This document shows positions 9,842-13,107 of a stretch of 64,000 bases of DNA, in pieces (position 1 is the stretch's first letter; each line of letters starts with the position of its first letter). The DNA comes from Micropruina sonneratiae (GTDB taxonomy: Bacteria; Actinomycetota; Actinomycetes; Propionibacteriales; Propionibacteriaceae): positions 62,001 to 126,000 of the forward strand of contig NZ_JAPDHX010000005.1 in assembly GCF_025972045.1 (NCBI RefSeq), read 5' to 3'. A program made the translations under genes and the position numbers. The notes below the pieces were generated by a model, which was given only the letters and a program-made list of their open reading frames with translations, made no database searches and was not told the DNA's origin.

Positions 9842-11206
9842 TCAACACTCGACGACGTTGACCGCCAGACCACCCTTGGACGTCTCCTTGTATTTGGTCA
9901 GCATGTCGGCGCCGGTGTCGCGCATCGTGGCGACCACGGTGTCCAGCGGCACGAGGTGGGTGCCGTCGAAATGCATGGCGGTGCGCGCCGCGGCCACCGC
10001 CTTCACCGCGGCGATCGCGTTGCGCTCGATGCAGGGCACCTGGACGAGCCCACCGACCGGGTCGCAGGTCAGCCCCAGGTTGTGCTCCATGCCGATCTCG
10101 GCGGCGTTCTCGACCTGCGCCGGGGTGCCGCCCATCACCGCGGCGAGGCCCGCCGCCGCCATCGCGCACGCCGAACCGACCTCGCCCTGGCAGCCGACCT
10201 CCGCCCCCGAGATGGACGCCGTGGTCTTGATGATGGCGCCGACGGCGGTGGCGGTGAGCAGGAAGGTGACCACGCCGTCGTCATCGGCACCGGGCATGTG
10301 GTGGCGGTAGTAGTGCAGCACCGCCGGGATGACGCCGGCGGCGCCGTTGGTGGGGGCGGTGACGACCCGGCCGCCGGCGGCGTTCTCCTCGTTGACCGCC
10401 AGCGCATAGGCGGCGATCCAGTCCATGCCGGTGAGGTCGTCCGGGGGGTTCTCGGACAGGTGACGGTGCAACTGGGGCGCCCGGCGCAGCACGTTCAGCC
10501 CGCCCGGCAGCCGGCCGTTCGTGGCGAAGCCGTTGCGGACGCATTCGGCCATCACCCGCCAGGTGGCCAGCACCCCGGCCCGCACGTCCGCCTCGGGCCG
10601 CAGCGCGCACTCGTTGCCGAGCACGACCTGCTCGATGCTCAACCCGTGCTCGGCGCACAGCGCGAGCAGTCGGGAGGCGGTGGTGAACGGGTAGGGCTCG
10701 GTGTCGCGGGCCGGGGGCGGCGGGGCGTCCAGCTCGTCGGCGGTGGCCACGAAGCCGCCGCCGATCGAGAACATCACCCGCTCATCGATCAGCACGCCGC
10801 CGGCGCCGAAGCTGCGCACCCGCATGCCGTTGGGGTGCTGCGGCAGGGCGCGGCGGCGGTGCAGGACGATGTCGGCGTCCGGATCGAAGTCGATCTCGTG
10901 ACGGCCCAGCAGCGGCAGTCGGCCGGTTCTGCGCACGACCCGCAGGGCGGGTTCGACGCCGGCCGGGTCGATCGTCTCGGGACGTTCTCCCAGCAGCCCG
11001 AGCAGCACGGCGCGGTCGGAGTGGTGTCCGCGTCCGGTGGAGCCCAGTGAGCCGTACAGGTCGACCCGGACCCGGGTGACCTCGTCCAGCCTGTCTTCGG
11101 CCGCCAGGTCCTCGGCGACCCGCAGCGCCGCACGCATCGGCCCGACCGTGTGCGACGACGACGGTCCGATGCCGATGCTGAACAGGTCGAAGAAGCTCAG
11201 CGCCAT
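9842..11206 (-). CDS. sdaA: L-serine ammonia-lyase, iron-sulfur dependent
   Basis: A 454-residue single-chain L-serine dehydratase that converts serine to pyruvate and ammonia. The beta domain starts with [19 protein letters not shown]. The alpha domain has [20 protein letters not shown] and the cluster cysteines in [10 protein letters not shown] and QVPCIERN. The chain ends in NVVEC; in this family the terminal Cys occupies the vacant iron site when no substrate is bound. All expected residues are present. Pyruvate made here feeds directly into the transcarboxylase encoded next door, on the same strand. Its upstream region is the repeat block described below. Confidence 0.95.
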
Positions 11207-11318
11207 CGCTTCACTGTAGGACGGCGGTCCACCCCCCGGTCGAGCAGTCGAGGCCGTTTGGGGTGGACGTCCGGGCTGGCCGTCCCGGGGTCTGCCGTTC
11301 GGGGGGATCGCGCCGGTC

Positions 11319-11399
11319 GGCCGTCCTGGGGGTCGGCCGTCCTGGGGGTCGGCCGTCCTGGGGGTCTGGCCGTCCTGGGGGTAGGCCGTCCTGGGGGTC
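11319..11399. repeat. 16-bp minisatellite, five units
   Basis: Five head-to-tail copies of a unit reading GGCCGTCCTGGGGGT(C/A), with one extra T between the third and fourth. Degenerate forms of the unit continue to the left (from about 11270) and reappear between the larger repeats at 11575-11590 and 11769-11786. The block lies upstream of sdaA and contains no convincing gene. Confidence 0.85.
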
Positions 11400-11905
11400 G
11401 GCCGTTCTCATCAACGCCGACTACTCGCACCTCGGGTGACTACTTTCGCGTTGCAACACGAAAACAGTCGGCGTTCCCGAGAACTGTGGGCGTTGCTGAG
11501 AACGCCGAACCGCGACGGTGGCGCGCCGAGTTTGGCCGTCCGGGGTGGGTCGGCCCGGGCTCACACCTGGGGTCGGCCGTCCTGGGGGTAGGCCGTTCTC
11601 ATCAACGCCGACTACTCGCACCTCGGGTGACTACTTTCGCGTTGCAACACGAAAACAGTAGGCGTTCCCGAGAACTGTGGGCGTTGCTGAGAACGCCGAA
11701 CCGCGACGGCGGGGTCGCGCCGAGTTTGGCCGTCCGGGGTGGGTCGGCCCGGGCTCACACTTGGGGTCGGCCGTCCTGGGGGGGTCGGCCGTTCTCATCA
11801 ACGCCGACTACTCGCACCTCGGGTGACTACTTTCGCGTTGCAACACGAAAACAGTCGGCGTTCCCGAGAACTGTGGGCGTTGCTGAGAACGCCGAACCGC
11901 GACGG
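11400..11905. repeat. Three copies of a 119-bp imperfect palindromic element
   Basis: Copies lie at 11400-11518, 11591-11709 and 11787-11905, separated by related spacers of 72 and 77 bp, giving a tandem array with a period of about 191-196 bp. The cores are nearly identical. Each copy is itself an imperfect palindrome: 18-bp outer arms match at 16 of 18 positions (11404-11421 against 11486-11503 in copy 1), and a central 32-bp dyad around GTTGCAAC lies at 11438-11469. The open frames through the block only reflect GC bias. The structure looks like a small non-autonomous mobile element or a REP/BIME-like element. Confidence 0.85.
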
Positions 11906-11979
11906 GGGCGCGCAACACGCGAACGGGATCCTCGGGCAGACCCGGATGACGGGAGATGTTGCCAGAGAAGATTCTCGGG

Positions 11980-13107
11980 TCAGTCGTCCTTCTTGCGGAT
12001 GGTCGGCATCCGCTTGCGGAACTCCTCTTCGAACAGGTGCTTCACCGCGGCCGAGTCGATCACGCCCTCGACGTTCGTGGGCAGCTTGCCGGCGGCCGCG
12101 CGCTGGCAGACCGTCAGCCAGGCCTGACCCATGGCGAGGGTGAAACCCGAAGCCACCGAGGCGTTGATGACTCCGCCGGCGACACTGCCCGCGCCCGGGA
12201 TGAACTTGAGCAGGTTGGCCGCGGCCGTCCGTCCGAGAGTGGTGGCGACGCCCGTGGACGCCGCGGCGAGCAGGGCGGCGCGGTCGAACGGCACCTTGTA
12301 CAGGTGGGCGATCCGGCCCATCATCGCCAGCTGCATCGGCACCAGCAGGGCTGCCGACGAGAACGGGATCGGTACCGCGGCCGCACCGGCGGCGCCCGCT
12401 ACGGTCGCGTTGATGTGTCGCTGCGCGGCTTTGTGTTTCGCTTCCAGATCGATCGCCTGGGCTGCGGTGAGGGCTCCCTGGACCGCGTCAGGAACAACCT
12501 GAAAGGTGGCCTGCAAGACGTCCATCAAGCCGTAGGGCGGCTGACCGGTGAACTGGTCCCTCATCGCGTAGGTCATGAACGGACGCCCGCCGACGATGGG
12601 CAGTTGCTTGGCCTCGACCTGGCGCGCCAGCTCGACGGCGTCGGGGTGGTACTGGCCGTCGCGCATCGGTACCTGGGTGAACACCACCAGCACCGGGATG
12701 CCGGCCTCGTGCAGGGTGCGGATGAACGTCGCCTCGACCTCTTCGAAGCGCCGGTCCATGCCGCGGACGCAGTACCAGGCCACGTGCACCTGTTCCTGGA
12801 CCGGCTTGGACCGCAGGCCCTTGAGGTACTTGGTGACCTCCTTGATCAGTTCGCCGTCGTCGCGTCCGATCTCGAGCCCGCGGGTATCGATCAGCCCGAG
12901 CGTGCCACGGGTGTCGAGATAGAGGTGGGAATCCAGGGTGACCGGGTCGCCGATGCCGGTCGCGGCCACCGGCTCGCCGAAGATCGCGTTGATCAGGGTG
13001 GACTTGCCCACGCCGGTCTTGCCGAAGATCGCCAGGTTGAACCGTCCGAGCTGGGCGGCCTGCTTGTCGAACTCGGTCCGGAAGGCGTCAGTGAACCATT
13101 GCGTCAC
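11980..13107 (-). CDS. GTPase with C-terminal DUF697-like membrane domain
   Basis: A 375-residue protein. The N-terminal TRAFAC-type G domain (about residues 20-205) has the P-loop FGKTGVGKST (about 28-37), switch residues around PVTLDSHLY and the G3 motif LIDTRGLE. The region TQVPMRDG is where G4 would be, so the NKxD motif is degenerate. The C-terminal half (about 220-350) has hydrophobic Ala/Gly-rich helices (AAVPIPFSSAALLVPMQLAM and ANLLKFIPGAGSVAGGVINA) typical of the DUF697 domain seen in YcjF-like GTPases. It probably binds the membrane, and such proteins are linked to envelope stress. No coupled partner is visible. Confidence 0.8.
   Translation of the reverse strand: MTQWFTDAFRTEFDKQAAQLGRFNLAIFGKTGVGKSTLINAIFGEPVAATGIGDPVTLDSHLYLDTRGTLGLIDTRGLEIGRDDGELIKEVTKYLKGLRSKPVQEQVHVAWYCVRGMDRRFEEVEATFIRTLHEAGIPVLVVFTQVPMRDGQYHPDAVELARQVEAKQLPIVGGRPFMTYAMRDQFTGQPPYGLMDVLQATFQVVPDAVQGALTAAQAIDLEAKHKAAQRHINATVAGAAGAAAVPIPFSSAALLVPMQLAMMGRIAHLYKVPFDRAALLAAASTGVATTLGRTAAANLLKFIPGAGSVAGGVINASVASGFTLAMGQAWLTVCQRAAAGKLPTNVEGVIDSAAVKHLFEEEFRKRMPTIRKKDD

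Follow-up and report, generated by a model that had tools for sequence, protein, structure and literature searches.

Palindromic repeats beside sdaA in Micropruina sonneratiae belong to a genus-specific family that brackets genes for a predicted winged-helix, Vsr-like nuclease

The window, by which we mean the whole stretch of 64,000 nucleotides analysed from Micropruina sonneratiae contig NZ_JAPDHX010000005.1, carries three palindromic elements in the gap between an sdaA-like gene and a GTPase gene (Table 1). The 100-bp cores of the three copies are 98-100% identical to each other (n = 3), which confirms the near-identical palindromic cores of a preliminary description, and the copies follow each other at spacings of 191 and 196 bp. 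That description gave a unit of 119 bp with 18-bp outer arms and a central dyad of 32 bp. The family unit is instead a 100-bp core within a palindrome of ~126 bp (flank consensus CCGGGGGTCGGCC / GGCCGACCCCCGG), whose flanks are partly retained in the window copies, best on the left side; the arms and the dyad are both present, with lengths of 19 bp (84% complementary) and ~28 bp, respectively. The nested structure and the long single-stranded hairpin proposed earlier both hold, with each half of the element consisting of near-repeats of a 19-bp unit about a centre like CTGCTTTCGTGTTGCAACACGAAAGCAG, and with copy 1 folding far better than its shuffled versions on either strand (z = -4.7 and -4.9; none of 200 shuffles equals it). 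The 28-bp central pattern, allowing up to 3 mismatches, matches the window three times, at the three copies, where 0.00 matches are expected.

Table 1. Features in and around the gap between the sdaA-like gene and the GTPase gene (positions in the window)
Feature	Position	Strand	Remarks
sdaA-like gene, L-serine dehydratase	9842..11206	-	start 197 bp from copy 1
16-bp tandem repeat GGTCGGCCGTCCTGGG	11315..11405	.	5.6 copies; like the element's left edge; adjoins the array upstream
Tandem array, element plus spacer	11378..11913	.	period 191 bp, 2.8 units
Palindromic element, copy 1	core 11404..11503 (100 bp); with arms 11391-11516	.	
Palindromic element, copy 2	core 11595..11694 (100 bp); with arms 11582-11707	.	
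Palindromic element, copy 3	core 11791..11890 (100 bp); with arms 11778-11903	.	
GTPase gene (MMR_HSR1)	11980..13107	-	3' end 89 bp from copy 3

Two Micropruina proteins match SdaA at 77-81% identity, and the window shares its GTPase-sdaA gene order with M. glycogenica, in which the corresponding gap (L060, 3716-3905) is filled by an unrelated CGTC-type REP array. The gap therefore tolerates differing palindromes. The sdaA neighbourhood of the array need not matter, and an influence of the array on sdaA is possible. The triplet itself is best explained by one inserted copy having later been duplicated in place, together with its spacer. Tandem triplets of the element also occur in another Micropruina genome, G001 (L173, L176 and L177), with spacers of ~100-350 bp.

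The preliminary description had likened the array to REP/BIME or MITE elements and had looked to further copies in the genome and its relatives, and such copies do exist. In the own genome (G000) the element gives 78 matches on both strands at E ≤ 10, with short partial matches counted, and a covariance model, first built from 23 of 35 own copies, finds the full-length element at no fewer than 37 places; relatives of full length are found in 6/6 Micropruina genomes. Since the best 150 candidates were scored for each genome, the counts per genome are lower bounds. The 35 extracted full copies, the window's three among them, are nearly constant in length (32 of 100 bp, two of 99 bp and one of 101 bp), and all 35 lie outside called genes, the calls around them coming from a simple purpose-made gene finder. 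Among the 34 copies with a classified gene context (one lies at a locus edge), 13 are between convergent genes, 15 between tandem genes and 6 between divergent genes; for comparison, convergent gaps make up 420 of the 9,756 intergenic bases in the window. The likeness to REP-type dispersed palindromes is thus upheld, but the MITE reading is unsupported, because no target-site duplication was seen in the 33 copies examined out of 35, where the greatest surplus of identical k-mers, 4 with 0.7 expected, came at unrelated offsets. A GTAG consensus is absent from the element ends, both in the alignment of 23 of the 35 copies and in the flanks of 33 copies, and GTAG is present within the arms of some copies. 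The element consensus found nothing in the plasmid collection, and the element arm gave 207 matches, the first 100 of them listed. In own copies, for example L004 and L008, the two halves tend to differ in type (GCCGACTACTCGCA.. and GCCCACTGTTCTCGGG..), so that the palindrome seems polar; compared by eye, 6 of 11 tandem loci have a polarity in agreement with their flanking genes, and gene direction is not followed.

A plain BLAST search with the element consensus gave matches in the own genome alone (1/57 genomes), and the exact arm pattern had no match in genome_contigs and viral_contigs, collections that possibly do not include the own genome. These searches suggested a species-private repeat, a reading that the covariance model overturned. 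A genus-wide model, run over 198 genomes of the family, finds the element in the six Micropruina genomes and in none of the 192 others (best 20 candidates per genome), where family denotes the GTDB grouping; NCBI puts the genus Micropruina in Propionibacteriales. The 49 copies extracted from the five other Micropruina genomes measure 98-103 bp, and a few weaker listed matches span 89-114 bp. The arms vary by species and by subtype (GTTCTC..CAACG, GATCGCGCGATCG, GATCTCGACATCG, GATCTCGAGATCG and others), and when one side changes its partner side changes too: 20 of 27 pairs have changes on both sides, and standard pairs fill 87.3% of cells, compared with 73.4% after shuffling and 24-40% after sliding, figures that lean towards the structure since the alignment was fitted to it with each copy on both strands. 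In the set of genomes that we tested, the element is specific to Micropruina and fast-changing.

Complementary arms could also be kept by selection on RNA pairing, with the hairpin acting in transcripts as a structured RNA or a terminator, and we examined G-U against C-A counts, covariation of columns and of half-elements, and the folding energies of both strands. The arm changes are mostly A-T/T-A, G-C/C-G and T-A/G-C swaps, and DNA symmetry fits better than an RNA helix because G-U pairs are few in the outer arms. Central positions of 32 own copies vary almost solely by transitions, with no clear co-variation between the two sides of the central pairs, and a side hairpin (columns 26-34, p ~0.01 and 0.02) fails after testing of 1133 and 368 column pairs. 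Rfam gave no match up to E 1 in window positions 11200-12000, and the polarity noted above agrees with the flanking genes at little more than half of the tandem loci. RNA-level selection could claim the strong folding of both strands, the enrichment of copies between convergent genes, and a per-copy excess of G-U over C-A or the reverse (p 0.005 in the 32 own copies, near-duplicates included; p 0.46 in G001), but on balance we consider it highly improbable.

We compared the genes flanking 84 element places (35 in the own genome and 49 in the five others) and found one well-conserved gene common to species, coding for a protein of ~288 amino acids, with elements on both sides of it in both species; two other flanking-gene matches between species, at 31-32% identity, were also listed. 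In the set compared, element sites besides this locus have no well-conserved flanking gene in common with another species' sites. In the own genome the gene is at G000:C1:417200-418060, with the same element on each side. Four extra half-elements, forming a 52-bp tandem array, lie beside the element upstream of this gene (L036, G000:C1 ~418296-418478). The protein has an N-terminal AbiEi_4 domain (E 8.1e-8) and a C-terminal match to MTES_1575 that falls under the curated cut-off (E 2.1e-4); PDB entry 3hrl matches it at E 0.039 only. Across 28 family members Pfam finds AbiEi_4 in 19, MTES_1575 in 9 and DUF559 in 2, and the 28 aligned proteins have 16 invariant residues, including E184, E188, D216, E227, D229 and K233 (28/28), which are candidate catalytic residues as expected of a PD-(D/E)XK-type centre. 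Judged by its sequence, with the conserved acidic and lysine residues in place, the partner is predicted to be an AbiEi-type winged helix fused to a Vsr-like PD-(D/E)XK domain of the MTES_1575 type. In the part of PMC3710099 that was available, a paper on intra-genomic conflict, MTES_1575 is a Vsr-fold domain described in a HEPN-containing protein.

The genus search for homologues of the nuclease returned 17 rows. All full-length close homologues (47-100% identical) have elements or a palindrome on both sides (8/8), the one in G004 being bracketed by a 62-66-bp palindrome of other sequence that the model matches partly. The other eight rows, with identities of 30-58% over either short or full-length stretches, have no model match above 18 bits. 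Six of these remote loci were examined for repeats. Own palindromes of 69-72 bp stand on both sides at three of them; two more have palindromes on a single side, and the last, which lies at a contig edge, is accompanied on one flank by a tandem repeat. A reading of the remote homologues as negatives is not upheld, since most of the inspected loci have their own palindromes. The CCAC..TTGTGGTTGA palindromes beside remote homologues in G005 and in the own genome (L201 1825-1972 and L202 2412-2581) are alike. A 118-aa fragment of a nuclease gene in G001 (L168/L199, C122) has two element copies on one side and is probably a decayed copy.

Each close nuclease gene is flanked by its own element subtype, and the dispersed copies follow the genes of their genome. 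Of the 78 dispersed copies in G000, G001, G002 and G005, 74 have a gene-flanking element of their own genome as the nearest one, with 14 flanking elements of 7 genes as references (the G004 gene left out), copies beside a gene or gene fragment dropped (L023, L172 and L168) and tandem copies counted singly. The 28 dispersed copies of G001 divide as 19 and 9 between its two genes. Two copies, at C1:97492 and C11:202696, have GATCTCGACATCG arms like the subtype of the C13 gene and are counted as misses, their nearest element by whole-length score being from G005. The copies of G003 (8) and G004 (7) match foreign subtypes, and their incomplete assemblies hold no cognate gene: G003, 89% complete, has elements and a remote nuclease homologue only, and the dispersed elements of G004, 84% complete, are mostly nearest to G001 types. 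In 464 kb of the own genome the subtypes of the C13 and C14 genes have no further full copy, only short partial matches, and so some of the nucleases may disperse little.

The close genes number one or two per genome and occupy at least five locations, as judged by their distinct neighbour genes. Three species have an orthologous copy of the gene at the glnE locus, where the neighbours are 73-89% identical and the nuclease 56-61%, and the flanking subtype is different in each. Elsewhere the gene has a PASTA kinase and a GATase as neighbours, adjoins a succinyl-CoA ligase gene, lies between the genes for SAICAR synthetase and for PurS, or, in two species, separates genes for 2-oxoacid dehydrogenase and LplA/B.

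A repeat family of REP or MITE type could also owe its movement to an enzyme that has since been lost or has its gene elsewhere, with the nuclease genes lying among the repeats by chance or as a safe landing place. Dispersed, intergenic, species-specific copies do resemble mobile DNA, a RAYT-like gene (PF01797) is present in 2 of the 6 genus genomes, and our survey of transposases covered the Y1_Tnp family alone. Chance, however, cannot give two-sided bracketing at 8 of 8 genes with gene-specific subtypes, nor the paired flanks at 34 of 38 loci in the order that are described below. As for the matching transposase to which the preliminary description pointed, the Y1_Tnp family has no match in the own genome, and the gene bracketed by the element is that of the Vsr-like nuclease. 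A RAYT as mobiliser is rejected for the own genome by this absence, and also because a different repeat, GGGGACGGTTCTCCAACC, flanks the RAYT of M. glycogenica, and we regard mobilisation by some other enzyme as quite unlikely. In M. glycogenica this RAYT-like Y1 transposase gene (L140, G005:C1:1635058) lies between inverted arrays of GGGGACGGTTCTCCAACC, which has 146 matches in G005 and none in the own genome (≤2 mismatches). The RAYT-flanking repeat (GGGGACGGTTCTC) seems to resemble the edge of the Micropruina element.

The association extends beyond the genus. A homologue of the nuclease (E ≤ 1e-10) is found in 147 of 391 genomes of the order and in 25 of 40 genera, with the best candidates, at most 6, scored per genome. 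We aligned the left flank of the gene with its right flank at 38 loci, 12 inside the genus and 26 outside (those returned with loci, many more matches being listed without), leaving out five partial-match rows, L199 and L201-L204. The best local alignment scored above the highest of 59 sdaA controls at 34/38 loci and at 23/26 outside the genus [control maximum 39, median 24; the controls are of mixed taxa, 19 of 78 having been excluded because of their length or N]. Four loci failed: L193 and L242, whose flanks are cut by contig ends, and L225 and L228. Strong palindromes on both flanks (score >41) occur at 22/38 loci compared with 1/59 controls, by a score that is insensitive, since it missed certain palindromes at L189, L190 and L195. 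The shared flank sequences are ~50-150 bp long, stand at distances of 9-352 bp from either end of the protein match (one at 532 bp) and are gene-specific except among close homologues. When 338 genes of the own genome were scanned in the same way, in 464 kb picked to include the contigs of two nuclease genes, these two genes ranked first and second (81 and 64; next 51 and 42). The third-ranking gene, ABC-type ATPase-like by sequence (L259 2069-3721, G000:C13), has a 33-bp inverted repeat with GAAACCGTCCCC on both sides. Repeat similarity correlates with protein similarity, weakly and mainly via close pairs [36 loci, L193 and L242 dropped: rho = 0.145, permutation p = 0.008]; among the eight Micropruina loci the correlation is not significant (rho = 0.27, p = 0.11).

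Repeats so close to the gene may also be read as operators, the winged helix regulating its own gene and others, such as sdaA, with the nuclease domain being incidental. Binding of AbiEi antitoxins to inverted repeats close to the promoter of their own gene favours this reading, as do the short distances between the shared repeats and the gene and the position of a window copy upstream of sdaA (Table 1). Yet the repeats are at both ends of the gene, the 3' end included, and more than twice as many own copies lie between convergent as between divergent genes (13 and 6 of 34). Moreover, the sites besides the nuclease locus, unlike those of a regulon, are not common to species in the set compared, and the candidate catalytic residues are invariant. 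We therefore consider a role as operators unlikely.

The protein might instead be a solitary toxin-antitoxin or phage-defence nuclease, with the flanking palindromes allowing recombination or gain and loss of the gene, and the dispersed copies being relics. Its weak PADLOC matches to AbiEi and the description of MTES_1575 in the HEPN-containing protein of the intra-genomic-conflict paper (available part of PMC3710099) are in line with this. But the nine neighbour proteins, from 5 locations, include no match to the AbiEii toxin family, and all nine look like housekeeping proteins (GlnE, 2-oxoacid dehydrogenase, LplA/B, SAICAR synthetase, PurS, GATase, kinase, succinyl-CoA ligase and metallo-hydrolase). 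Searches at E 1e-5 or 1e-8 found no homologue of the nuclease in 72,556 plasmid records, with two queries, or in 50,697 phage records, with one, and the gene is at the same locus in three species; a defence system is, in our estimate, very unlikely.

The association between gene and repeat is directly observed, and mobilisation of the repeats by their partner nuclease is what we infer from it. The window repeats are probably non-autonomous copies of a genus-specific palindrome partnered with a chromosomal single-gene nuclease. In a scheme modelled on RAYT and REPINs, the winged helix would read the palindromic arms, and the nuclease domain would nick or cut the element, acting on a single-stranded hairpin or on a cruciform. 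Repair or re-ligation might then copy the element into new intergenic sites, or repair might maintain the copies there, and gene and repeats would co-evolve as RAYT and REPIN do. In a broader form, on which our judgement is evenly balanced, these loci would represent an actinobacterial class of mobile repeats in which a stand-alone nuclease of the Vsr-fold PD-(D/E)XK kind, equipped with a winged-helix reader, takes the place of a transposase, each gene processing a long palindrome of its own. This would be a third and independent way, next to RAYT/REPIN and TIRYT, of keeping up populations of palindromes in the bacterial chromosome.

Bacterial genomes commonly contain short palindromic repeats. 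The dedicated enzymes described for such repeats, in the available part of PMC3733652, are tyrosine transposases only. The bracketing of an unrelated, nuclease-type family by gene-specific repeats predicts a substrate for this large group of proteins, which match mainly AbiEi, REase_MTES_1575 or DUF559 models, and the origin of the repeats becomes testable with one protein and one oligonucleotide. In the open-access literature, as far as its text was available, we found no report that pairs AbiEi, MTES_1575, DUF559 or Vsr proteins with palindromic or inverted repeats.

Several known systems share parts of this arrangement. ERIC, MIRU and BOX elements are imperfect palindromes or modular repeats of similar size that are intergenic and sometimes tandem, and we know of no nuclease associated with elements of this type. 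AbiEi antitoxins of AbiE systems have the N-terminal AbiEi_4 domain in common with the partner protein, which differs in its C-terminal Vsr-like nuclease domain, in its palindromic flanks and in having no AbiEii among the neighbours scanned. CGTC REPs, which are said in the available text of PMC3733652 to lack a dedicated transposase, are likewise intergenic palindromes and are present both in the own genome and in the sdaA gap of M. glycogenica, whereas their 24-bp sequence is unrelated and the element consensus is without the CGTC tag and stem. In our reading of its sequence the Micropruina repeat GTCATCCCGGCGNANGCCGGGATC would belong to the CGTC families; with up to 2 mismatches it has 67 matches in the own genome, 339 in G005, 415 in G001 and 0 in G002. 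TIRtrons have a lone tyrosine-transposase gene (TIRYT) between gene-specific long terminal inverted repeats, some with dispersed families (PMC3733652, in the part available). They resemble the Micropruina loci in having a single enzyme gene between gene-specific repeats with dispersed families, and differ in the enzyme, the Micropruina partner being of PD-(D/E)XK type.

The closest known kind is REPIN/RAYT. In the available parts of PMC3116915, PMC3733652 and PMC8049555, REPINs are hairpin-forming extragenic palindromes with many dispersed copies and subtype-specific pairing, and the RAYT gene is chromosomal, at one locus over several species, and bracketed by its own repeat. Like these GTAG REPs and REPtrons, the Micropruina system combines dispersed extragenic hairpin palindromes with an enzyme gene bracketed by its cognate repeat (8/8 here), from another enzyme family. 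It is not a member of REPIN/RAYT, because the own genome has no Y1_Tnp and the element has no GTAG tag at its ends. The enzyme is a predicted winged helix with a Vsr-like PD-(D/E)XK domain, whereas a RAYT is a Y1/HUH transposase; the element has a core of near-fixed length with a conserved centre, whereas the REPIN spacer is diverse; and there are one or two close gene copies per genome, whereas RAYTs are described, in the parts of these sources available, as single-copy. There is a serious chance that the pairing of nuclease and repeat forms a class separate from REPIN/RAYT.
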